Shown piece after piece: positions 1,934-11,676 of a DNA stretch of 11,983 nucleotides (its first letter is position 1; each line of letters starts with the position of its first letter). Under the pieces are notes generated by a model. The model was given only the letters and a program-made list of their open reading frames with translations, ran no database searches and was not told where the DNA came from. Both the position numbers and the translations under genes were made by a program. Source of the DNA: Methanobacteriota archaeon (GTDB lineage Archaea > JAADCQ01 > Methanopyri > Methanopyrales > Methanopyraceae); assembly GCA_027064425.1 (NCBI GenBank), contig JAMOPO010000025.1, forward strand, positions 1 through 11,983. The letters are read 5' to 3'.

Positions 1934-3004
1934 TTGAACACGGACGCGGTGGTCCTGGCGGGCGGGTTCGGGACCCGGTTGAGACCGCTCACCTGGGACA
2001 CCCCCAAACCGCTGGTTCCGATCCTCGGTCGACCTTTGCTCGAGTGGGTGATTCGCAGCCTACCTGACGACGTCGTGCACGTTCACATCGCCGCCGGGTT
2101 CAGCTCCGACAAGCTGGAGAGGTACGTCGAGTCCAACCCCCTACCTCGCAAGCTTCACTTGAAGGTGGAACCCAAGCCCCTGGACACGGCGGGCGCGATC
2201 AAGTTCGCCTGCCGGGACTCGACCGCGGACGTGTTCGTAGTCTTCAACGGTGACATAATCTCCTCGCTCGACGTGCGTGAGATGCTCGAGTTCCACCGCG
2301 AGCACGATGGCATCGCCACGATCGCGCTGTATCCCGTGCCCGAGGACGAGGTTTCCCGGTTCGGTGTGGTGGATCTGAACGAGGACAACCGCATCCTGAA
2401 CTTTGTCGAGAAGCCGGCCCCCGAGGAGGCTCCCTCCAACCTGATCAACGCAGGGGCCTACGTCCTGGACAGGGAGGTGCTCGACTACATCCCCGAGGGC
2501 CGACCGGTCTCCATCGAGCGTGAGATCTTCCCGAAGCTGGCCGAGGAGGGCCTCCTCTACGGGTTCAAGTTCGAGGGTTACTGGGTCGACGTCGGACTCC
2601 CGGAGACCTACCTCGAGGCGCACTGGGTCTTGATGGAGCACGAGTGTTCCGGCGCGGCCTTGGTGGGGGTCCGGACGGACGGCGCGGAGGTAAACGAGCC
2701 CGTTGTCGCCGACCCAATGAGCGAAATCAAGGACTCGACCGTCGGCCCCTACGTGTACATCGGAGGACGCGTCGAGATCGACGGGGCCGTGATAAAGAAC
2801 TCAGTCATCCTGGCGGACGCGCGCATCGAGAACGCCGAGATTAAGGACACGATCATCGCGGAGAAGTGCCACGTCGAGGACGCCGAGCTTGAGGGATGCG
2901 TCATCGGGCACGACGCTGAGGTCTCGGGATGCACACTGAAGGATGTCAAGGTAGCGCCCGGCAAGGAGGCGGGGGAGGACCTCGAGGGCCAGTGGGTGAT
3001 CTAG
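1934..3004 (+). CDS. NDP-sugar pyrophosphorylase with C-terminal left-handed beta-helix (mannose-1-P guanylyltransferase / GlmU-like)
   Basis: A 356-residue cytoplasmic nucleotidyltransferase that joins a sugar 1-phosphate to an NTP, releasing pyrophosphate. The N-terminal Rossmann-like domain has LAGGFGTRLRPLT at 8-20, the catalytic KPLVP at 25-29, TAGAIK at 85-90, the metal-binding FNGDI at 104-108, FVEKP at 157-161, NAGAYVL at 172-178 and WVDVGLPETY at 217-226. Residues from about 263 to 345 are imperfect hexapeptide repeats (I/V at every sixth position) typical of a left-handed beta-helix. TAGAIK and overall length favour mannose-1-phosphate guanylyltransferase or an archaeal GlmU/glucose-1-P type; the nucleotide and sugar cannot be fixed from motifs. 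TTG 1934 directly starts the conserved N-terminus, after GGCGAGGAG, 15 bp past the SIS gene stop. It likely works with that gene and the divergent phosphohexomutase in one sugar-nucleotide route. Confidence 0.92.
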   Translation: MNTDAVVLAGGFGTRLRPLTWDTPKPLVPILGRPLLEWVIRSLPDDVVHVHIAAGFSSDKLERYVESNPLPRKLHLKVEPKPLDTAGAIKFACRDSTADVFVVFNGDIISSLDVREMLEFHREHDGIATIALYPVPEDEVSRFGVVDLNEDNRILNFVEKPAPEEAPSNLINAGAYVLDREVLDYIPEGRPVSIEREIFPKLAEEGLLYGFKFEGYWVDVGLPETYLEAHWVLMEHECSGAALVGVRTDGAEVNEPVVADPMSEIKDSTVGPYVYIGGRVEIDGAVIKNSVILADARIENAEIKDTIIAEKCHVEDAELEGCVIGHDAEVSGCTLKDVKVAPGKEAGEDLEGQWVI

Positions 3005-3433
3005 GTGAGTGAGCGCACCATTGACACCATCCGGATCATCGCGTACGTCTTCTTCCTGTTCTTCGTACTCCCCGTCCTGATATTCGCCCTCGTCGTGGTC
3101 CTGGCACCTCTCGTGGTGTTGCTAGTGCTGATGGTGGCTTTCGTGGTCATATTCACTCAGATCCCCTGGACACCGCCGGAGTTCAGCCTCGCAGCGGAGG
3201 TAATTCTGATCGCGCTGTACCAAATAACCCGCGAGAAGCTGCTGCTTGAGGTCGCAGAGAACCTGGCGACCCATCGGAAGAAGTCCCTCGAGCTGGACCG
3301 CGAGGAGGACATTGAGAGAGCGCTGGAGGAGGGTGACACGAAGCGCGCGCTGCGCCTCTACCTCCGGGAGATCATGGAGAGGGTCGTTGGGAGTCCCCCA
3401 CATGCTAAGCCCGAAGACCGTGGCGACGATTAA
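3005..3433 (+). CDS. Small membrane protein of unknown function with charged C-terminal helix
   Basis: A 142-residue protein I do not recognise. Residues about 8-52 are almost continuously hydrophobic (phenylalanine-, valine- and leucine-rich), enough for two tight membrane helices. A third weaker hydrophobic stretch near 60-73 follows. The remaining C-terminal half is highly charged with many Glu, Arg and Lys, probably helical and cytoplasmic, and may form a coiled coil. GTG 3005 abuts the stop of the pyrophosphorylase gene. A GGGTGA Shine-Dalgarno at 2994-2999 inside that gene lies five bases upstream, so translation is probably coupled. Position between sugar-nucleotide and GT-C-like genes suggests a helper in the same envelope process, but nothing in the protein shows a catalytic role. 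Confidence 0.75.
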   Translation: MSERTIDTIRIIAYVFFLFFVLPVLIFALVVVLAPLVVLLVLMVAFVVIFTQIPWTPPEFSLAAEVILIALYQITREKLLLEVAENLATHRKKSLELDREEDIERALEEGDTKRALRLYLREIMERVVGSPPHAKPEDRGDD

Positions 3434-3965
3434 CACCGTCGTTACGAGCCTCCCGTTCGCCATCTCCCTGTACCTTGTCCTACGCAGGATGGGACGCACG
3501 CTGATTCAAATGTACTCCCTGGCGTATCTGGCCCCGTTCCTCGTGATCGTCTACGGTGTCTCGGTCCCGGTTCCGGGCAACCTGTACGCGTATTTCACGG
3601 GTGCCCCCGTGCTGTTGACGTACGGGGTCGCGGACGCGGCGGTCCTAACCTACGCCGTGGGCTCGGCGCTCGCGGTTATGTTCGTGGGCATGGACCAGTG
3701 GGCCGACGTGCTCTACTCGGGCTCGCTGACCGCAATGTGGCTGCTGAACGCGGTTATGGACTTGGGTCCCCGGGCCTCGCTGCTCCTCGGGTCGGCGATC
3801 ACGGTCGCGTCGAACATGTTCGTGGCACTGTACAAGTACCACGCCTGGCCCATAATCCCGCTTCCTTCGGTAATACTCCAGTTCTCGGTGGCTGTGGGAG
3901 CGATAACGGCGCTGGAGGGATTGGCGTGGTGGGTCTTCACGAAGCTAAAGCCGCCTGCGCGGTAG
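3402..3965 (+). CDS. Polytopic membrane protein of unknown function
   Basis: A 187-residue protein with about six predicted membrane helices (stretches near residues 10-26, 35-52, 68-95, 100-118, 122-142 and 155-180) and short loops. I recognise no family motif; it could be a flippase-like or scaffold protein, which is only inference from context. The open frame reaches back to 3246, but that section is antisense-like arginine- and tryptophan-rich shadow of the upstream gene. ATG 3402 starts the hydrophobic protein cleanly and has GGGAG at 3389-3393, eight bases upstream. It overlaps the upstream gene by 32 bases and the downstream S1 gene by 37 bases, consistent with co-translation in a single operon. 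Confidence 0.75.
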   Translation: MLSPKTVATINTVVTSLPFAISLYLVLRRMGRTLIQMYSLAYLAPFLVIVYGVSVPVPGNLYAYFTGAPVLLTYGVADAAVLTYAVGSALAVMFVGMDQWADVLYSGSLTAMWLLNAVMDLGPRASLLLGSAITVASNMFVALYKYHAWPIIPLPSVILQFSVAVGAITALEGLAWWVFTKLKPPAR

Positions 3966-4540
3966 CCGTCGCCATCCTAGCGTTGATCAACGCTCTCGCG
4001 GTGAGCCACCCGAGGTTTCGGCCGGTAGGTACCACCATCACGTACCCGTGGCTGAACTCGAGCGATACCTACAGGGTGTTGTCGCTTCCCGTCCTCTCGG
4101 GTCCCTCGGTTAACACCATACTCCCGGTCGGGCTCTTCGTGTCCTCCGACAGGCTGTTCGTAGGCCCTCTAACCACGGACGTCAGCAGCGCGTCGCTGTG
4201 GCCGAAATCCACGAGCACCAAGCTGACACCTCTGCTCCGGCGGCTTTCACCCGACGCGCGCGTCTCGTGTTACGGGATCAGCTCCCGCCACTTGGACGTA
4301 GCCGTTTCAGAAACCCTCTCGGTGTTGGTCGGGAAGCGCTGCGTGGTGGTTGTTGGGAGGGACTACCTGATGGTGGTAAGCTGCGAGCGCGCCAGCGTTA
4401 GGAGGTGTTTAGGAGGCGCGTACGTGTCCGCGAGCAAGGCTAGCCTGGTCATGTCGTTCCCGGAGCGTATCCTGGAGGGGGCCTATACGTGGAGGCCAAG
4501 GTTACCGCTGTCGCTGCCGTTTCCGCACTTGTCTCTATAG
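3929..4540 (+). CDS. Small membrane-anchored protein S1, partner of the GT-C-like protein L1
   Basis: About 203 residues with an N-terminal hydrophobic segment (about residues 7-25) that can act as a signal anchor, followed by a probably extracytoplasmic, beta-rich domain with many valines and serines. No known family is recognised. It is clearly homologous to S2 at 7518-8111: shared pieces include TYPWL (38-42 here, 36-40 in S2), VGPLT against LGPLT, VSCYG against VSGYG, and FPERILEGAYTWRPRLPLS against LPERVFWGVHVWKPSLRLS. Start: GGAGGGA at 3914-3920 places GTG 3929 eight bases downstream, and GTG 3926 is an equal alternative; the open frame further upstream is antisense-like shadow. Its last 52 bases overlap the start of L1 in the -1 frame. 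The same arrangement in S2-L2 suggests the two proteins act as a pair. Confidence 0.8.
   Translation: MGLHEAKAACAVAVAILALINALAVSHPRFRPVGTTITYPWLNSSDTYRVLSLPVLSGPSVNTILPVGLFVSSDRLFVGPLTTDVSSASLWPKSTSTKLTPLLRRLSPDARVSCYGISSRHLDVAVSETLSVLVGKRCVVVVGRDYLMVVSCERASVRRCLGGAYVSASKASLVMSFPERILEGAYTWRPRLPLSLPFPHLSL
4474..4480 (+). promoter_or_regulatory. Shine-Dalgarno GGAGGGG for L1 inside S1
   Basis: GGAGGGG lies eight bases before GTG 4489 and within the S1 coding sequence. It supports translation of L1 from inside S1, so L1 output is probably coupled to ribosomes that are finishing S1. Confidence 0.6.
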
Positions 4541-6732
4541 CGTTCGTCGTCTACGACTGCTGCGAGGAAGTGGGTAGGATCACCACGACCATGGACCTGC
4601 CCATCCAAGCCCTAAAGACGTACCTCATAGCGAAGTACGGCCTGTCGGGCGCCGACTGGGACCCGTACTCGTACTTAGGCAGAGCCCCACTGGTCAACTA
4701 CCCCATTCTTCCCTTTCTCTTTCCCGCCCTCCTTACCAGGCTCACCAAAGACCCGATGCTATCCTGCTCCGTCACCGAGATTATCTATAGATCGGTTCCA
4801 GTGATCGTTTGGCTATTCCTTCTTTTCCTCGGTAAGTGCTCCTCCAGGGCCACTGTAGCCACCCTTGTGTACCTAATTTCCTACCCGGTGTTCTCCGTAT
4901 ACGACGCCCATTACGTGAGGATAGCCACAACCATGTACTTCTGTTCCGCCGTCGTGGCGATCACCGTTTGGCACTCGAAATTGAGCAGAAGGGTGAGGGA
5001 AACCTTATCCATACTGGCCTGGTTCGCATCGGTACAATCGAACTTTGTGTACTCGCTCGTGCCGCTCGTCGTGGTGTCCATCATGGAAAGTCCGAAGCTG
5101 CTCGTCGCCGCCGGCGCCGCGGTGCCGCCCATGGTGCTGGCCTACTGGGCGGGGAAGCTGGAGTTCGACAACCCTCCCGCCTCCTCACGGCTCACGCTCT
5201 CCCCGTACGACACCGTCGACACCACGCTGATTCTGGTCGTGACAGCGCTCGTGGCCACCGTGGTAGCGCTGTCTTTCCTGCTCGAGGATTGGAGAAAAAG
5301 TGCCCTGATCTCGCTGCTGACGGTGACGGCCTCCCTGGGACCGTTCGCGGTGTTCGCGGCGCCCCCGCTGGCCTACGGGGTCCTGAAGGTTGTCAAGGTG
5401 GTGGCGCAGCTCGACCCTCACCGGCTCGCGCTGATGGCACTGCTCTCTTTGATCGCCCTATGCGCCCGAGTCGCCGAGCGCCTGCTGCGAACGATCACGG
5501 TGTGCGGCGGCGTGGGATCAGTGGCCTGCTTCCTGATGGCCCTCACGGTCCTCCTCGGGGTCTGCCGATGGGATGTGGCCCCCATGCACGCCCTGCAGCT
5601 CGGGCATGGTCCGCGGGACGTCAGGAGCGTGGTGACCTCACCCAACGACGCGAGCGCCATCTTTCCCTGGAACGGTCGGACCGTCGGGGCGTCGCTGGCC
5701 GGGGCCTTCTATCAAGGTAGCTCGGAGCCTGAGCTCCGCGTGCTCTCGGCGGTCTACTTCCCAGGCAGCTTGCTCTCCACGCTGCGCTTTTCGGACTACG
5801 TTCGTCGGCCGCTTTACAACCAGGCGTTCGACCCTCAGCTGGCCGACAAGGTGGTGAGGATCCTTCCTGCCGGTCGGGTGGAGCACCTGCCGGGAATCAT
5901 CGTCCCGACGTCCGGCCTGGCGGACGTGCGGACGGTGGCGATAAGGAACGCGCCCGCCATCACCGTACGGGACGCCATCCCGGTGCGCAGGGCTAGGGCG
6001 CTCTACGTGGGCTCGTTCACGGACTACAGTTACCTGTGGTTGAATGTGGTGCGGTGCGCGCCCGCGGGCTACTTCCCCGTAATCCCCTGCCTCCGCCCCT
6101 ACGATCTCAAGCACCACCAGCAGCTCGACGTGACCAGGTACTGGACCGGAGAGATCCTGATCCTGGACCCTGAGGCCGTCAATTACCCGCACCTCGACAG
6201 GCTGGTTCACCGCGCCAAGGTGGTCCTGGCGGTGCGAGGGGCCTTCGACAGCAGGGGGCTCGGCTCGATCCTGGGAGCCGTTCACCGGTGCGGGAAGCGC
6301 GCCGAGGTCATCGACGGGATCGACCGTCCCATCAAGGCCCCGGTTCTGCGGGACCTCGCTAGGGTCACCGCCGTCCCCGTTAACCACGCCGAGCGCGGAG
6401 TCGTGCAGCCGGTCGGCAACGATCGAATGATTGTGAGGCCCCGGAGCGAGCTGTCCATCATCCCGTGGGCGTGGGCGCCGTTTTGGGCGGTGAACGGGCG
6501 GGAGGGTGAGGCGTGCCCGGTCGGCCCGTACATGCTCGTCAGGACCGGAGGCAAACCCGCCCACCTACACTACGTCGCCTGGGAACGATACCAGTCCCGA
6601 GCCTACGAGGTCTCGGTGCTGCTTCTGGCGCTCAGCGTCGTCGGCGTCACGTGCTCCGAGCTCGTCCGGGGTAGGCCGGCTAAAGGGAGTAGGGCCACCT
6701 CGGGTACCTCCACACCAGGTCCTGAAAGGTGA
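4489..6732 (+). CDS. GT-C-like polytopic membrane protein L1 with large extracytoplasmic domain
   Basis: A 747-residue protein. A first helix (about 5-22) is followed by a loop with Asp36 in MDLPIQ and WDPYSYLGRAPLVNYP at 57-72. This resembles the first outer loop of GT-C glycosyltransferase-like and PTPS_related/YfhO-type membrane proteins, where an acidic residue and a W-N/D-P-Y...G.P motif lie near the lipid-linked sugar site. About ten more helices run to residue 362. Residues 363-705 look extracytoplasmic and contain FSDYVRRPLYNQ and a terminal IPWAWAPFWAVNG...GPYMLV beta module like that of YfhO. A last helix (708-726) and a charged tail follow. L2 at 8066 is its paralog: the first 80 residues align without gaps, yet two DNA tracts are identical. 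The acceptor and donor are unknown; the enzymatic role is inference. Its 3' end overlaps the minus-strand gene by 53 bases. Confidence 0.85.
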   Translation: MEAKVTAVAAVSALVSIAFVVYDCCEEVGRITTTMDLPIQALKTYLIAKYGLSGADWDPYSYLGRAPLVNYPILPFLFPALLTRLTKDPMLSCSVTEIIYRSVPVIVWLFLLFLGKCSSRATVATLVYLISYPVFSVYDAHYVRIATTMYFCSAVVAITVWHSKLSRRVRETLSILAWFASVQSNFVYSLVPLVVVSIMESPKLLVAAGAAVPPMVLAYWAGKLEFDNPPASSRLTLSPYDTVDTTLILVVTALVATVVALSFLLEDWRKSALISLLTVTASLGPFAVFAAPPLAYGVLKVVKVVAQLDPHRLALMALLSLIALCARVAERLLRTITVCGGVGSVACFLMALTVLLGVCRWDVAPMHALQLGHGPRDVRSVVTSPNDASAIFPWNGRTVGASLAGAFYQGSSEPELRVLSAVYFPGSLLSTLRFSDYVRRPLYNQAFDPQLADKVVRILPAGRVEHLPGIIVPTSGLADVRTVAIRNAPAITVRDAIPVRRARALYVGSFTDYSYLWLNVVRCAPAGYFPVIPCLRPYDLKHHQQLDVTRYWTGEILILDPEAVNYPHLDRLVHRAKVVLAVRGAFDSRGLGSILGAVHRCGKRAEVIDGIDRPIKAPVLRDLARVTAVPVNHAERGVVQPVGNDRMIVRPRSELSIIPWAWAPFWAVNGREGEACPVGPYMLVRTGGKPAHLHYVAWERYQSRAYEVSVLLLALSVVGVTCSELVRGRPAKGSRATSGTSTPGPER
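6004..6146 (+). repeat. Repeat A, copy 1 (143 bp, identical to 9545-9687)
   Basis: Every base matches positions 9545-9687, including synonymous positions, in a constant offset of 3541. It encodes residues 506-553 of L1, starting with YVGSFTDYSYLWLNV and ending RYWT. The base just before is C here and T in copy 2, and the base just after is C here and G in copy 2; beyond these, the two genes diverge strongly at once. This looks like a recent conversion tract. Confidence 0.97.
6458..6606 (+). repeat. Repeat B, copy 1 (149 bp, identical to 10008-10156)
   Basis: All bases match 10008-10156 at an offset of 3550. It encodes residues 657-706 of L1, the terminal extracytoplasmic beta module (IPWAWAPFWAVNGREG to QSRAY) just before the last helix. 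The 311 bases between tracts A and B are diverged (320 bases in L2, three codons longer), so A and B are separate tracts. Confidence 0.97.
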
Positions 6733-7459
6733 AATTAGGCAGGACGATCGGTGACCAGCGGATCACCATCCCGCCGCGTGATCGGATGACCCCGCGGACC
6801 CCATCCACGTCGAGCCGCCCGTGCCGGGCCTCCACGGCTGTGATTTCCATCGGGGTTGGAAGGCCGAGAATCAGGAAGGCCCGGGACAGGAGTGGGATCC
6901 TTGCCATTGAGATGATGGCCAGGTGGTGAACCTTCCCTTCGTACCCGCGGACCATCTTACCGTGGACTATCAAGGAAGGAGGGACGTACGTTGCTGAGCC
7001 GCTCCAGATGACACTTTTAAGTAGTACCAGTGAGCACGGGCCGCTGACTTCTACCCCGGAGTAGTTCACCCTAACCTTGGGCCTCCCGGAGCAGACGATC
7101 GTGAATGGTGCCGGCATCGGGCCCATGTACACGTTGACGCGATTCCCGCTGACGACCACCCAGTATCGGCCGGCGAGGTGCGGGATGGGGACGATCTCAT
7201 ATCCTCCCATGGAGGGGAGGTTGAACTTCTCATAGGCGGTGGGGTCGCGGTACCAGGCGTAAACGGGGACGGGGCCGGGCTGAAGGTCCCTACCGCTCAC
7301 CGCCGGCAGCCTTTTAACGCTCATTATCTTCACCGAGGGGGGAGTGGGGTTCGTCGTCGCCGCCGTCCACGTGTGGAAGTATCCCTTCGAGACGGCTAGG
7401 ACGGCCACCAGGACGGCCACAAGTTGTGTGAAAAGGACGGGCCGGACGTAACCGGGCAT
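6680..7459 (-). CDS. Membrane-anchored extracytoplasmic protein, unknown function
   Basis: A 259-residue protein with a hydrophobic N-terminal segment (about residues 8-24, VLFTQLVAVLVAVLAV), probably a signal anchor, followed by a beta-rich region full of Val, Gly, Pro and Tyr. A second hydrophobic stretch at about 182-200 (LAIISMARIPLLSRAFLIL) could be another helix. I recognise no family and could not align it convincingly to S1, S2 or the 507-residue neighbour. The ATG at 7459 has GGGGG about six bases upstream on the minus strand. It sits between the two S-L modules on the opposite strand, sharing a 58-bp divergent gap with S2 and overlapping the 3' end of L1 tail-to-tail by 53 bases. 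A role with the surface glycan genes is inference from position and predicted location. Confidence 0.78.
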   Translation of the reverse strand: MPGYVRPVLFTQLVAVLVAVLAVSKGYFHTWTAATTNPTPPSVKIMSVKRLPAVSGRDLQPGPVPVYAWYRDPTAYEKFNLPSMGGYEIVPIPHLAGRYWVVVSGNRVNVYMGPMPAPFTIVCSGRPKVRVNYSGVEVSGPCSLVLLKSVIWSGSATYVPPSLIVHGKMVRGYEGKVHHLAIISMARIPLLSRAFLILGLPTPMEITAVEARHGRLDVDGVRGVIRSRGGMVIRWSPIVLPNFTFQDLVWRYPRWPYSL

Positions 7460-7488
7460 GCACCGCCCCCGGGCGCGGTCCCTCCGCG

Positions 7489-7500
7489 CCCATTATTGGG
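7489..7500. promoter_or_regulatory. Candidate shared TATA-like element in the divergent gap
   Basis: The only AT-rich run in the 58-bp gap between the minus-strand 259-residue gene and S2 is CCCATTATTGGG. CCCA/TGGG form inverted arms around TTAT. It is placed about 30 bases before the minus-strand ATG, as an archaeal TATA box with a short leader would be, and about 20-25 bases before the S2 ATG. It does not match the archaeal consensus well, so confidence is low. Confidence 0.3.
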
Positions 7501-7517
7501 TCATTCGGGGAGGGAAC

Positions 7518-8111
7518 ATGAGGGGCCTGAGGCTCGTTGCGGCGGCCCTGATTGGCTGGCTGTGGTGCGCCGTGGCATGGTCGGCGGTGAATCCCAGGTA
7601 CGTCATTCACGACGGAAAGGTGACGTACCCGTGGCTTCGGGACGGCTTCCGGACGCTGGAGATGCCCGTGGTCATGGGACCGGTGACGGACACCTGGGTC
7701 CCCTGGAGGGTCGTACAGGCGTCGGAGTGGCTGATCTGGGGGTGGTTGGAGGCGGGACCCGATCGTCTCGCGTTGGGGCCCTTGACGTACCGGTCGAGCG
7801 GGAGCTGGGCCAAGCTGATGAGGGCGTCGGAGGGTACCAGAGTGTCGGGGTACGGGCTGAAGTCCGGGGATTCCGACCTGATTTTTCGGGGCTTCCTAGT
7901 GGACAGGGGAGGTAGGTGGCTCGTCCTGTTGTGCCCGGGCGGTCCGGTCCTGGTGCTCGGTGGGAAGATCAGGGAGTGGCGGGTGTTCGGGGAGGTTTAC
8001 GTGTCGCTCCGGAGGGGGATGGTGATCGCCGTCCTGCCAGAGCGCGTGTTCTGGGGAGTGCATGTTTGGAAACCGAGCTTGCGATTGTCCTCATTGGGTT
8101 TACCGCCCTGA
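7518..8111 (+). CDS. Small membrane-anchored protein S2, partner of the GT-C-like protein L2
   Basis: About 197 residues: a hydrophobic N-terminal anchor or signal (residues 4-24, rich in Ala, Leu and Trp), then a probably extracytoplasmic beta-rich domain. It is the paralog of S1, sharing TYPWL, LGPLT, SGYG and the C-terminal LPER...G.HVWKPSLRLS region, with low identity elsewhere. ATG 7518 is preceded by GGGGAGGG at 7507-7514. The ATG at 7458 in the same frame is rejected because it lies in the divergent promoter gap, overlaps the start of the minus gene and adds a charged stretch before the anchor. Its last 46 bases overlap the start of L2, in the same -1 frame relation as S1 with L1. Function unknown; the conserved pairing suggests it is a subunit or accessory of L2. 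Confidence 0.8.
   Translation: MRGLRLVAAALIGWLWCAVAWSAVNPRYVIHDGKVTYPWLRDGFRTLEMPVVMGPVTDTWVPWRVVQASEWLIWGWLEAGPDRLALGPLTYRSSGSWAKLMRASEGTRVSGYGLKSGDSDLIFRGFLVDRGGRWLVLLCPGGPVLVLGGKIREWRVFGEVYVSLRRGMVIAVLPERVFWGVHVWKPSLRLSSLGLPP
8053..8058 (+). promoter_or_regulatory. Shine-Dalgarno GGGGAG deciding the L2 TTG start
   Basis: GGGGAG lies seven bases before TTG 8066. With this start L2 begins METELAI and aligns without gaps to L1 (MEAKVTA) through DCC at 23-25, MDL at 35-37 and W57. The upstream open frame back to 7916 encodes an arginine- and glycine-rich shadow of S2. Confidence 0.65.
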
Positions 8112-10252
8112 TGCTGGGCCCGATGATCTGGGACTGCTGCGTTAACGCCGGCGCTTCCCCGGCGGACATGGACCTGGCCGTTCAGGCTGTGAAAACGTAC
8201 CTGATCAGCCGTCACGGACTCGCCGGCGGCGACTGGGATCCTCACTCGTACCTGGGCCGGCCGCCGCTGGTCAACTACCCTGTGGTCCCGTTCTTACTCC
8301 CCGCGCTGCTCTCTAGGTGCGTCGACCCGGCCCTCGCGTGCTCGATCTCCGAGTACGTGTACAGGATGCTGCCCGTGTTGGTCTGGGCCGCGCTCAGGCT
8401 GGCCGGAGCGGACTCCCGCGGGTCTCTAGGGGCGCTGATCGTCTATTTGGTTCTGTATCCGATCTACCTGCTGCACAATGCCACTTACGTGCGGGTGGCC
8501 ACGACGCTGGCGTACTGCGCGTTCACGACCGCTGTGATCGTATGGTACTCAAACCTTGGACGCAGACTTCGGACCGCAACCTCCGCCGCGCTGCTCTACG
8601 TCGCGCTCCTGTCAAATTTCATCTATATCCTACTCCCGGCGGCGGCGTTCGCGCTCCTGGAGTCCCGCACGCTCTTCCCACCGATCCTGTCCGCGACCCC
8701 GGTCCTGTATCTGGCGTACGAGTTCGGCAAACTGAGCTTCAGCAACGTGCCCGCCTCGTGCCACTTCACCTACACGATCCTGGACAAAGGGACGACGATG
8801 ATCCTCGGGCTCCTGTCCGGCCTTGCCGTCCTGACGCTGCTCATCAGCCTATTGGACTCACGCTCGGCGGTGCTGTCGCTGGGGACGGGAGCCTGCCTGG
8901 CGACGCTCGCCGGATGGTGCATGGTATCCCCCGGGCTGGAGAAGCTCATGATCGGGTCGGCGAAGGTGCTCACGCAGCTCGACCTGCAACGGCTCCCAAT
9001 CATCCCCTCGTTGACGCTCACGATCGGGGTGGCAAGGGTGAGCCGCAAACGGTCGCTTCCTCCGACGTGGGCGCTGATCGGCCTCCCGCCGGTCTGCCTC
9101 ACGGCCATTGGATCGGCGGCGCTTCCATGGGTGAGCCTGCCCAGCCTGATCGCAGGGGTCTATGACGGGCACGAGCAGCGGGTCTTCGTGGCCGGCACGG
9201 CCGACGCCTTGTTCCCGTGGAAGGACGGGAGGCTGGGCATGTCACTGATGGGAGCCTTCCATCAGGGGCTTCCGGAACCGGCGTTGAGGGTGCTCACGGC
9301 CACGTACTTCCCGCTGGGCACGATGGCGGGTGGGTTCAGCGACTACTCTCATCGACCGGGTTACAACCAGCCCTTCAGCCTAGAGTTAACCCGGAAGCTC
9401 CTCGACATACTCCCCACCGGCCGCGTGGAGGTGATGGTGGAGCCTGCGGCCTTGCACGGGCCATGCGACGTGAAGGGAGTGCCAGAGGTCCGGTCACGGG
9501 TGAGCCTAAGGGACGCCCTGCCCGTCGATCGCGTTCGGGTCCTTTACGTGGGCTCGTTCACGGACTACAGTTACCTGTGGTTGAATGTGGTGCGGTGCGC
9601 GCCCGCGGGCTACTTCCCCGTAATCCCCTGCCTCCGCCCCTACGATCTCAAGCACCACCAGCAGCTCGACGTGACCAGGTACTGGACGGGGGACGTCCTT
9701 GTCGTTGACCCCGGGGCTCTTCAACACCCGGGCCTGAGGCGGCTGGTGAAGCGCGCTAGGATCGTTGTCGTCGCGCACTCGTCGCCGGCCCTGGATCGCG
9801 CGGACGTGAAGGACGTCGTCCGGCTCGTGAGAAAGTGCGGTAAGCGGCCCATCGTGCTGGGACCCGTCCACAGACCGATCGCGCCTCGGGCTCTGCGACC
9901 CCTGATGCGGTCACTGGTTCACTGGGACGGGTGCAAGGTGAAGGGCGCCGTGCACCTGGCGGCGAACGACAGGATGGTCGTGGACGGGGTAAGGTCACGC
10001 CTGGCCGTCATCCCGTGGGCGTGGGCGCCGTTTTGGGCGGTGAACGGGCGGGAGGGTGAGGCGTGCCCGGTCGGCCCGTACATGCTCGTCAGGACCGGAG
10101 GCAAACCCGCCCACCTACACTACGTCGCCTGGGAACGATACCAGTCCCGAGCCTACCTTTGCTCCGCCCTCCTTTTCATCGGCCTCACCGCGGCGGCAGT
10201 GATGCTCAGCAGCGCAAGGAGCAGGCTGAAGGGGGCCGTCGGCCTGTCGTAG
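8066..10252 (+). CDS. GT-C-like polytopic membrane protein L2 with large extracytoplasmic domain
   Basis: A 728-residue paralog of L1. It has a first helix (about 5-22), DCC at 23-25, Asp36 in MDLAVQ, and the loop motif WDPHSYLGRPPLVNYP at 57-72, at the same residue numbers as L1. About ten further helices follow, then a probably extracytoplasmic region from about 360 to 697 containing FPWKDGR, GAFHQG, FSDYSHRPGYNQ and the terminal IPWAWAPFWAVNG module. A last helix lies at about 700-717. Repeats A and B fall at residues 494-541 and 648-697; the region between them (DVLVVDP to RSRLA) is only about 40 percent identical to L1 by eye. GT-C-like or PTPS_related/YfhO-like membership is inferred from motif and layout. 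The TTG start was chosen by alignment and Shine-Dalgarno. The last 100 bases are coding on both strands. Confidence 0.85.
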   Translation: METELAIVLIGFTALMLGPMIWDCCVNAGASPADMDLAVQAVKTYLISRHGLAGGDWDPHSYLGRPPLVNYPVVPFLLPALLSRCVDPALACSISEYVYRMLPVLVWAALRLAGADSRGSLGALIVYLVLYPIYLLHNATYVRVATTLAYCAFTTAVIVWYSNLGRRLRTATSAALLYVALLSNFIYILLPAAAFALLESRTLFPPILSATPVLYLAYEFGKLSFSNVPASCHFTYTILDKGTTMILGLLSGLAVLTLLISLLDSRSAVLSLGTGACLATLAGWCMVSPGLEKLMIGSAKVLTQLDLQRLPIIPSLTLTIGVARVSRKRSLPPTWALIGLPPVCLTAIGSAALPWVSLPSLIAGVYDGHEQRVFVAGTADALFPWKDGRLGMSLMGAFHQGLPEPALRVLTATYFPLGTMAGGFSDYSHRPGYNQPFSLELTRKLLDILPTGRVEVMVEPAALHGPCDVKGVPEVRSRVSLRDALPVDRVRVLYVGSFTDYSYLWLNVVRCAPAGYFPVIPCLRPYDLKHHQQLDVTRYWTGDVLVVDPGALQHPGLRRLVKRARIVVVAHSSPALDRADVKDVVRLVRKCGKRPIVLGPVHRPIAPRALRPLMRSLVHWDGCKVKGAVHLAANDRMVVDGVRSRLAVIPWAWAPFWAVNGREGEACPVGPYMLVRTGGKPAHLHYVAWERYQSRAYLCSALLFIGLTAAAVMLSSARSRLKGAVGLS
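9545..9687 (+). repeat. Repeat A, copy 2 (143 bp, identical to 6004-6146)
   Basis: Second copy of tract A, in L2 residues 494-541. It is in the same reading frame and direction as copy 1 and begins exactly at a codon boundary. Flanking sequence is diverged. Confidence 0.97.
10008..10156 (+). repeat. Repeat B, copy 2 (149 bp, identical to 6458-6606)
   Basis: Second copy of tract B, in L2 residues 648-697. Its right edge at 10156 lies one base past the complement of the stop codon (10153-10155) of the minus-strand membrane-protein gene, so the stop of that gene is inside the repeat and its coding sequence begins where identity ends. Confidence 0.97.
10153..10252. other. Tail-to-tail coding overlap of two membrane-protein genes
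   Basis: One hundred bases encode the end of L2 on the plus strand (last helix, containing LLFIGLTAAAVML, and a basic tail) and the end of the 507-residue protein on the minus strand (last helix, containing FSLLLALLSITAAAV, and a basic tail). Both strands therefore specify a hydrophobic C-terminal helix. The other module has a shorter 53-base tail overlap at 6680-6732 in which L1 encodes only its charged tail. Confidence 0.85.
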
Positions 10253-11676
10253 CGCACGCGTCCGTTGAGGACCATCAGGCCGGCCGGTCCCGGCCGGCGG
10301 TGGGAGTGAGGCTTCCACCAGGGGCTGAACGACTGGGCCACTAGCCCGTGGCCGGAGAGCGTCCTGGGGGTTAGTACGAGGGGCTCCGAGACGGGCTTGA
10401 TGCCGTTCAAACGGGACCACTCGTACGCGAGGGTGAGCTGGTCGGAGGACTGAGCAGCCAGGTGTCCGGGGGACACGATCCTCAGGATCTTCAGCTTTAG
10501 CTGCAGCACCCTCGGTTCCACGCTCGAGGACGGGGTGAAAGCCACGTACCGCGAGTCCCCGACCTGAGTCATCAGGATGGCGAACGTGGCCGTCGCGGGC
10601 GTCGTGGACAGGAACGGCGGATTCACCACCGGTCGCCCGCGGAGCACGTGGTGGACAACCTCCGTGAACCACGGGTCGCTCGAGACCACCGCGACGGCGC
10701 TTCCCGACCCGACGGTGACGGAGCCGGCGATCGTCATCCTGGGCTTCGCCAGATACGAGAGCTCGGCCATGTTGAGCGGGATGAACGTCAGCGACATCAG
10801 CGCGGCGGAGGCCAGGACCCGTCGATGCCTCCGCTCCAGCCCGGCTAGCACGGAGTCGGCGTACCGGAGGGCCTCCGATAGGGCCAGAACGTACGGGAAC
10901 GCCAACCCCATGACGAGTCCGGGATGAAGGAGGGAAGCCGCGGCCAGGACGCAGGCCAGCAGCGCAGGTGCTTTCCACCGGGTCCCGAGCGCACGGTGCA
11001 GCAGGTAGCCCAGGGTTACCGTCACCGCAAGGGACACTGAGATACCCAGGCAGTACGCGATCGTCAACGGGCTCAGGATGGCGGATGTCGCCATCCGGTT
11101 TATCGACTCGGCGAGGTACGAAGCGAGGTCGTCGGCGGTGCACGCGAGGGAGGCGATCAGCGGCCACGGGGATGGAGATCGTAGCGCGAGCTCCACGCAC
11201 AGGGCCAACTCCGGCAGGGCAAGGGATCCCAGGGTCCTTCGGGCGGGCGAGCCCGTCGCCAGCCCGGCCAGGTAACAGACGACGAGCGCGGGAGCGGGGT
11301 GTAGGGTGTAAGCGACGGCGGCCAGCGAGGGTAGCGCCAGGGTCGCGGCCAGGAGGCGGGAGCGAAAGGCCAGGTACGTGCACAGGGAGACGGCGAGGAC
11401 GGCCAGCAGGGTCGTCGATCGGCCGAGCCCGTAGAGCAGGTAGTACGGGGTGGGGGACAGCGGGTACCCGCCACCTAAGTAAGGGTTCCACTCCGGGAGC
11501 TCGTGCGCCCTGAGGCTCTCGGCGACCGCCTTGAGGTTCGCCACCCCGGAGGCGTAGACGTAGGGGAAGAGGGGAACGCGGAGTGGGACCAGGGCCAAGA
11601 AGATCAAGACCAGGCTTGCCATCGAGCCCAGCGCGATGGCGTCGACGTGCCTCCGGGTCGGGAAAGGCACCGGCAT
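10153..11676 (-). CDS. Third GT-C-like polytopic membrane protein, divergent (507 residues)
   Basis: A 507-residue membrane protein. After a first helix (about 14-31) comes a loop with PEWNPYLGGGYPLSPTPYYL at 61-80, the classic W-N-P-Y..GGYP signature of PTPS_related/YfhO-like GT-C proteins and a counterpart of the WDPY loop in L1 and L2. The acidic residue that L1 and L2 have about 21 residues before this Trp is not evident here (FPYVYASGVANLK), so catalysis is doubtful. Roughly seven more helices run to about 300. A smaller outer domain follows, with FSPWWKPHSHRRPG...LMVLNGRVRY near 440-475, similar in kind to the terminal module of L1 and L2, then a final helix. ATG 11676 lies directly next to GGGGGG, so GTG 11670, six bases away, may be the true start. 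The C-terminal helix is encoded opposite that of L2. Confidence 0.82.
   Translation of the reverse strand: MPVPFPTRRHVDAIALGSMASLVLIFLALVPLRVPLFPYVYASGVANLKAVAESLRAHELPEWNPYLGGGYPLSPTPYYLLYGLGRSTTLLAVLAVSLCTYLAFRSRLLAATLALPSLAAVAYTLHPAPALVVCYLAGLATGSPARRTLGSLALPELALCVELALRSPSPWPLIASLACTADDLASYLAESINRMATSAILSPLTIAYCLGISVSLAVTVTLGYLLHRALGTRWKAPALLACVLAAASLLHPGLVMGLAFPYVLALSEALRYADSVLAGLERRHRRVLASAALMSLTFIPLNMAELSYLAKPRMTIAGSVTVGSGSAVAVVSSDPWFTEVVHHVLRGRPVVNPPFLSTTPATATFAILMTQVGDSRYVAFTPSSSVEPRVLQLKLKILRIVSPGHLAAQSSDQLTLAYEWSRLNGIKPVSEPLVLTPRTLSGHGLVAQSFSPWWKPHSHRRPGPAGLMVLNGRVRYDRPTAPFSLLLALLSITAAAVRPMKRRAEQR

Follow-up and report, generated by a model that had tools for sequence, protein, structure and literature searches.

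Two short stretches of DNA, tracts A and B, are identical at every base between the otherwise strongly diverged tandem genes L1 and L2 of a Methanopyrus contig, and this identity is probably the product of recent ectopic gene conversion between the two paralogs, restricted to two conserved blocks of a locus that appears to recombine recurrently. The window analyzed is the whole of contig C25 (11,983 bp) from assembly G000 (57 contigs, 1.54 Mb; Methanopyrus). Conversion is suggested as the mechanism by the identity itself, its statistical significance, the abrupt edges of the tracts, and the unconstrained silent sites of orthologous genes.

Two identical tracts in diverged paralogs

A repeat search identified tract A as an exact, maximal repeat of 143 bp, as the initial annotation had reported, and tract B as a further exact repeat of 149 bp, located in the same two genes 311–320 bp beyond tract A (Table 1); these are the sole exact direct repeats of at least 18 bp within the window. 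Outside the tracts, the L1 and L2 proteins are 37% identical in both the N segment and segment M, close to the value of about 40% that had been estimated by eye. A codon-by-codon alignment of the two genes, which had been proposed as a check, showed that the degenerate codons encoding the same residue are identical at 45/45 positions in tract A and 43/43 in tract B, versus 91/223 (41%) elsewhere. At this background rate, the chance of full silent identity is about 10^-17 for each tract, and the longest runs of identical codons (49 and 47) compare with runs of at most 13 in 20,000 shuffles. In each of the 20-codon flanks before tract A, after tract A, and before tract B, 7/20 silent codons are identical; thus, the switch from identity to divergence is abrupt, in agreement with the first description of tract A. 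Tract B begins and ends where the family's most conserved block does. According to the structural model of L1, tract A would encode the start of the C-terminal domain, and tract B would cover the final strands of the C-terminal part together with the base of the final helix. L1 and L2 run into the 3′-ends of the convergent genes downstream, by 53 bp for L1/rev1 (6680–6732) and by 100 bp for L2/rev2 (10153–10252).

Table 1. Features of the L1/L2 locus in the window
Feature	Coordinates	Strand	Description and basis
Small ORF	3929–4540	+	Adjoins L1 upstream and overlaps its start; also in C4
L1	4489–6732	+	747-aa membrane protein; predicted GT-C-like N-terminal part, soluble C-terminal domain, and last TM helix (ORF, family alignment A1, AlphaFold model, structure search)
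Tract A, L1 copy	6004–6146	+	About residues 506–553; exact match to 9545–9687
Segment M of L1 (between tracts)	6147–6457	+	Protein 37% identical to L2; silent-codon identity at the background level
Tract B, L1 copy	6458–6606	+	About residues 657–706; exact match to 10008–10156
rev1	6680–7459	-	Convergent gene after L1; homologs in C3, G003, G002, and G001
Small ORF	7518–8111	+	Adjoins L2 upstream and overlaps its start
L2	8066–10252	+	L1 paralog, about 728 aa; start placed by alignment with L1, ORF open from 7916 (ORF, exact repeats, family alignment)
Tract A, L2 copy	9545–9687	+	Exact match to 6004–6146
Segment M of L2 (between tracts)	9688–10007	+	aa identity 87% to C4 and 62% to G003a
Tract B, L2 copy	10008–10156	+	Exact match to 6458–6606
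rev2	10153–11676	-	Convergent gene after L2; homologs in C3, C4, G003, G002, and G001

The L1/L2 family is undescribed. Searches of Pfam and NCBIfam yielded no match for the L proteins beyond chance, and a sequence search of the PDB yielded no relative. An AlphaFold model of L1 was obtained with a mean pLDDT of 68; the 16 best structural alignments of this modest-confidence model are all to GT-C enzymes or to complexes with one (Z 8.1–11.1), and Foldseek returned no hit with an E-value <0.001. The multi-TM N-terminal part aligns best, its leading partners being Pmt4, AglB, ArnT, AftA, and AftD, and L1 further resembles these GT-C enzymes in a D-W-D sequence (D56-W57-D58) that is invariant in 10/10 family sequences; its position in an early loop, read from a low-confidence region of the model, would fit the acidic (DxD-like) GT-C motif of the first large loop. 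L1 differs from the GT-C enzymes in matching no Pfam or NCBIfam family, in the modest confidence of its model, and in its C-terminal domain, in which residues ~502–629 resemble flavodoxin-like or Rossmann-like folds (Z about 6–8), a likeness that may reflect a common arrangement only. L1 and L2 thus look like putative GT-C-type glycosyltransferase-like membrane proteins. A Pfam scan of the neighboring genes identified a nucleotidyltransferase and a SIS-domain protein, and our own reading of the sequence suggests a phosphosugar-mutase-like and a GtrA-like protein as well; these sugar-related neighbors make a role of L1 and L2 in surface sugars plausible.

Versions of the locus in Methanopyrus

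Searches identified relatives of L1 and L2 both in the same assembly and in related genomes. G000 contains five L genes, of which two lie on C25, one on C4 (4,124 bp), and two on C3 (164,606 bp). Three other Methanopyrus genomes (G001, G002, and G003) contain two relatives each, and a fourth contains none; among the 197 genomes searched, the family was found in four, all of the genus Methanopyrus. G002 (one contig, 1,694,969 bp) is presumably M. kandleri AV19. The second L copy of G003 (L018, 5829–7811, carB side) appeared as two pieces with stops near the 3′-end in a first search and as a single open match in a later one. In a collection of genome contigs, a scan with L1 alone gave no match, and a scan with the family alignment retrieved only the MAG corresponding to G003. 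A mobile or viral origin was rejected, as a pattern scan of viral contigs detected no relative of the family. Literature searches found no paper naming this locus.

The flanks of C25 (1–3860 and 11429–11983) match C3 in the same order, with identities of 85% and 82%, indicating that C25 and C3 carry alternative versions of one locus. The order of rev1 and rev2 relative to L differs among the Methanopyrus genomes: L-rev1-rev2 in C3, rev1-L-rev2 in G003, and L1-rev1-L2-rev2 in C25. The C25 order combines arrangements present elsewhere, and the order of genes in the other contigs supports a two-gene ancestor of the C25 type. The L genes diverge between strains far more than their neighbors; L1 and its C3 relative, C3a, share 49% aa identity, compared with 95% for carB and a nucleotide identity of 85% for the left flank. 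The C4 version of tracts A and B is 95% identical to the C25 version.

The single L gene of C4 matches L1 at 65 of the 71 sites to the left of tract A that differ between L1 and L2, and matches L2 at 50 of the 60 such sites to its right; the 143 bp of tract A itself (2916–3058 in C4 (L005)) contain zero sites informative for the switch. In the segment trees, C4 groups with L1 in N (support 1.0) and with L2 in M (0.99, nucleotide) and, weakly, in C (0.65). By these comparisons, C4, which represents another strain, is a chimera with an L1-type front and an L2-type back, with the switch placed inside tract A. Either this strain recombined within tract A, or the assembler crossed there, which would itself require an identical tract in that strain.

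Base composition provides a further indication. In G002a, GC3 is 0.28 in front of and 0.58 behind a change point at alignment column 582 (two-log-unit range 553–619), which falls inside tract A (columns 545–592) with a posterior of 0.69; the same jump occurs in G001a, with a wider range (columns 499–622). In G002, a low-GC block of ~2 kb begins just upstream of L and ends near tract A. The jump in G002a could be a gradual change in composition rather than a junction; even so, the composition of G002 and G001 hints that front modules were exchanged near block A, and the C4 chimera together with the G002 jump suggests that recombination at this locus is recurrent. An improbable extension of this idea is a Methanopyrus-specific swapping of modules, in which the front half of this GT-C-like enzyme for surface sugars would be exchanged repeatedly between strains and paralogs in block A (and B), diversifying the cell surface; if true, front-module swapping would let a hyperthermophilic methanogen vary its surface glycans. 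The low-GC sequence (about 36%), comprising the front of L and the region upstream, spans 11441–13470 in G002 (L019) and 12681–14710 in G001 (L020). Another GC3 step, from 0.63–0.70 to 0.85–0.89, is located near alignment column 180 in L1, C4, and C3a (L021, 16943–19135) and is perhaps another old junction. When the two L copies of G002, one upstream (a) and one on the carB side (b), were compared, silent identity was 15/32 for tract B versus 35/137 (p about 0.03); homogenization of the a and b copies in tract B in G003 and G002 is not claimed, because composition varies along G002a.

Probable gene conversion and its alternatives

Under conversion, homologous recombination between L1 and L2 would recently have transferred the short stretches A and B between the two genes in a copying step. 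Both lie where the protein family is most conserved, and only there would the DNA similarity suffice for strand exchange; copying would have halted where the genes diverge. L1 and L2 show 0 differences in 292 bp, whereas 23% of the comparable silent codons in N are different between C4 and L1, indicating that the copying took place after the split between C4 and C25. Tract A groups with G003a, an ortholog of L2, with a support of 0.95 in the nucleotide tree and weakly in the amino-acid tree, and its identity is 79% to G003a versus 70% to C3a; this grouping suggests that tract A was copied in the direction from L2 to L1. Segment M of L2 matches C4 and G003a and is thus in phase with the remainder of L2. 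Weighing against the conversion reading is segment M, whose divergence implies either two separate events or one patchy event.

Both gene copies lie on one contig from a strain-mixed short-read assembly, and the collapsed repeat raised as a possible refutation in the initial annotation was judged unlikely, with a residual risk arising from this origin: reads of L1 and L2, or of multiple strains, may have been merged, giving merely similar tracts one shared sequence, or sequence from different strains may have been joined into the contig. G000 includes short contigs that are allelic copies (about 85–97%) of other contigs; 4 of the 6 sampled have a near copy elsewhere in the assembly, with further such pairs among the fetched contigs; the simplest reading is that the assembly is strain-mixed and that C25 and C4 derive from minor strains. 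In addition, large contigs overlap by exactly 127 bp at three junctions, the residue expected of a de Bruijn assembler with k = 127, and tracts A and B exceed this length only slightly. However, the same assembly held the 95% identical C4 versions of the tracts apart from those of C25, the two contigs share no exact run >50 bp and hence are not joined in the assembly graph, and the tract flanks are too diverged for bubble merging. L2 matches G003a, which comes from a different assembly, in its front, middle, and end alike, so that the phase of L2 is correct through both tracts, and partial orders of C25 genes recur in C3 (L-rev1) and G003 (rev1-L-rev2). The assembler also passes repeats longer than 127 bp, as contigs C50 and C53 share an exact run of 896 bp. 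Outside this run (C50 (L062), 1512–2407; C53 (L063), 2626–3521), the two contigs show about 94% identity; the run represents either another abrupt tract between allelic contigs or an effect of assembly.

Less likely again is an import from outside, in which the tracts would have reached L1 and L2 through recombination with the DNA of a co-occurring strain and not through intrachromosomal copying. In favor of this reading, a single assembly contains three or more versions of the locus (C25, C4, and C3), and C4 and C25 agree somewhat more often at silent codons in A and B (74/83) than elsewhere (421/547; p about 0.01). C4, the only other close version seen, nevertheless differs by ~5% in both tracts and is therefore not the donor, and it would be less economical to suppose two imports that hit the same pair of blocks in both genes.

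It is very improbable that the conserved blocks are dedicated recombination sites at which front modules, each consisting of the small ORF and the GT-C part, are swapped onto the conserved C-terminal domain to diversify cell-surface sugars. The switch of C4 in tract A, the low-GC front modules of G002 and G001, whose ends lie near tract A, and the excess divergence of the L genes between strains are compatible with such cassettes, but ordinary homologous recombination accounts for everything, and the protein function invoked is a prediction. No inverted repeat of at least 20 bp was found in the window, no recombinase was recognized in a Pfam scan of ten window ORFs, and no silent cassette was found. 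A programmed shuffling system is possible; nothing found requires one.

The initial annotation had called for either recent conversion or a constraint on the DNA or RNA itself, and the former was supported and the latter rejected. A constraint through an overlapping gene, an RNA structure, or a binding site would explain why every silent site in the tracts is identical, and long antisense ORFs run across them; its probability is negligible, because silent sites vary freely in both tracts among orthologs, RNA folding z-scores (0.35 to 1.66) indicate structures no stabler than shuffles, Rfam has no match in the window, and antisense ORFs are expected in GC-rich DNA. In the closest ortholog pair, G002a and G001a, the identical codons number 35/40 in A, 34/40 in B, and 477/564 elsewhere, so that the tracts (85–88% identical) differ as much as the remainder (85%). 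Retention of the tract at the DNA level in orthologs had been named as counting against conversion, and the orthologs show no such retention: C3a and G003a keep about 50–70% of the L1 silent codons there. The protein of both blocks is conserved across the family, while the silent sites are not.

Gene conversion between paralogs is a known process, of which the L family and its locus would provide a new example that is recent and has sharp boundaries. The two tuf copies of Salmonella are nearly identical throughout, so that their conversion is not limited to islands of conservation. As proposed for L1 and L2, the two tuf copies are converted through homologous recombination (PMC5485169). Recurrent concerted evolution of prokaryotic paralogs, in which repeated conversion leaves paralogs of the same genome closer to each other than to their orthologs, has been surveyed (PMC6053082); in L1 and L2, by comparison, the likeness is confined to two blocks and the remainder is about 37% identical. 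Domain-limited gene conversion between archaeal paralogs has been published for mtrA (PMC4632066), in which mtrA-1 and mtrA-2, likewise methanogen paralogs, share a homogenized soluble domain while their other parts diverge. The mtrA genes belong to another family, and their homogenization is long-lasting, spans many lineages, and covers a whole domain, whereas L1 and L2 show two ~150-bp tracts in one recent case. The present locus would thus add a recent, sharply bounded conversion between archaeal paralogs that have diverged strongly, in a hyperthermophile whose gene content at this site varies between strains.
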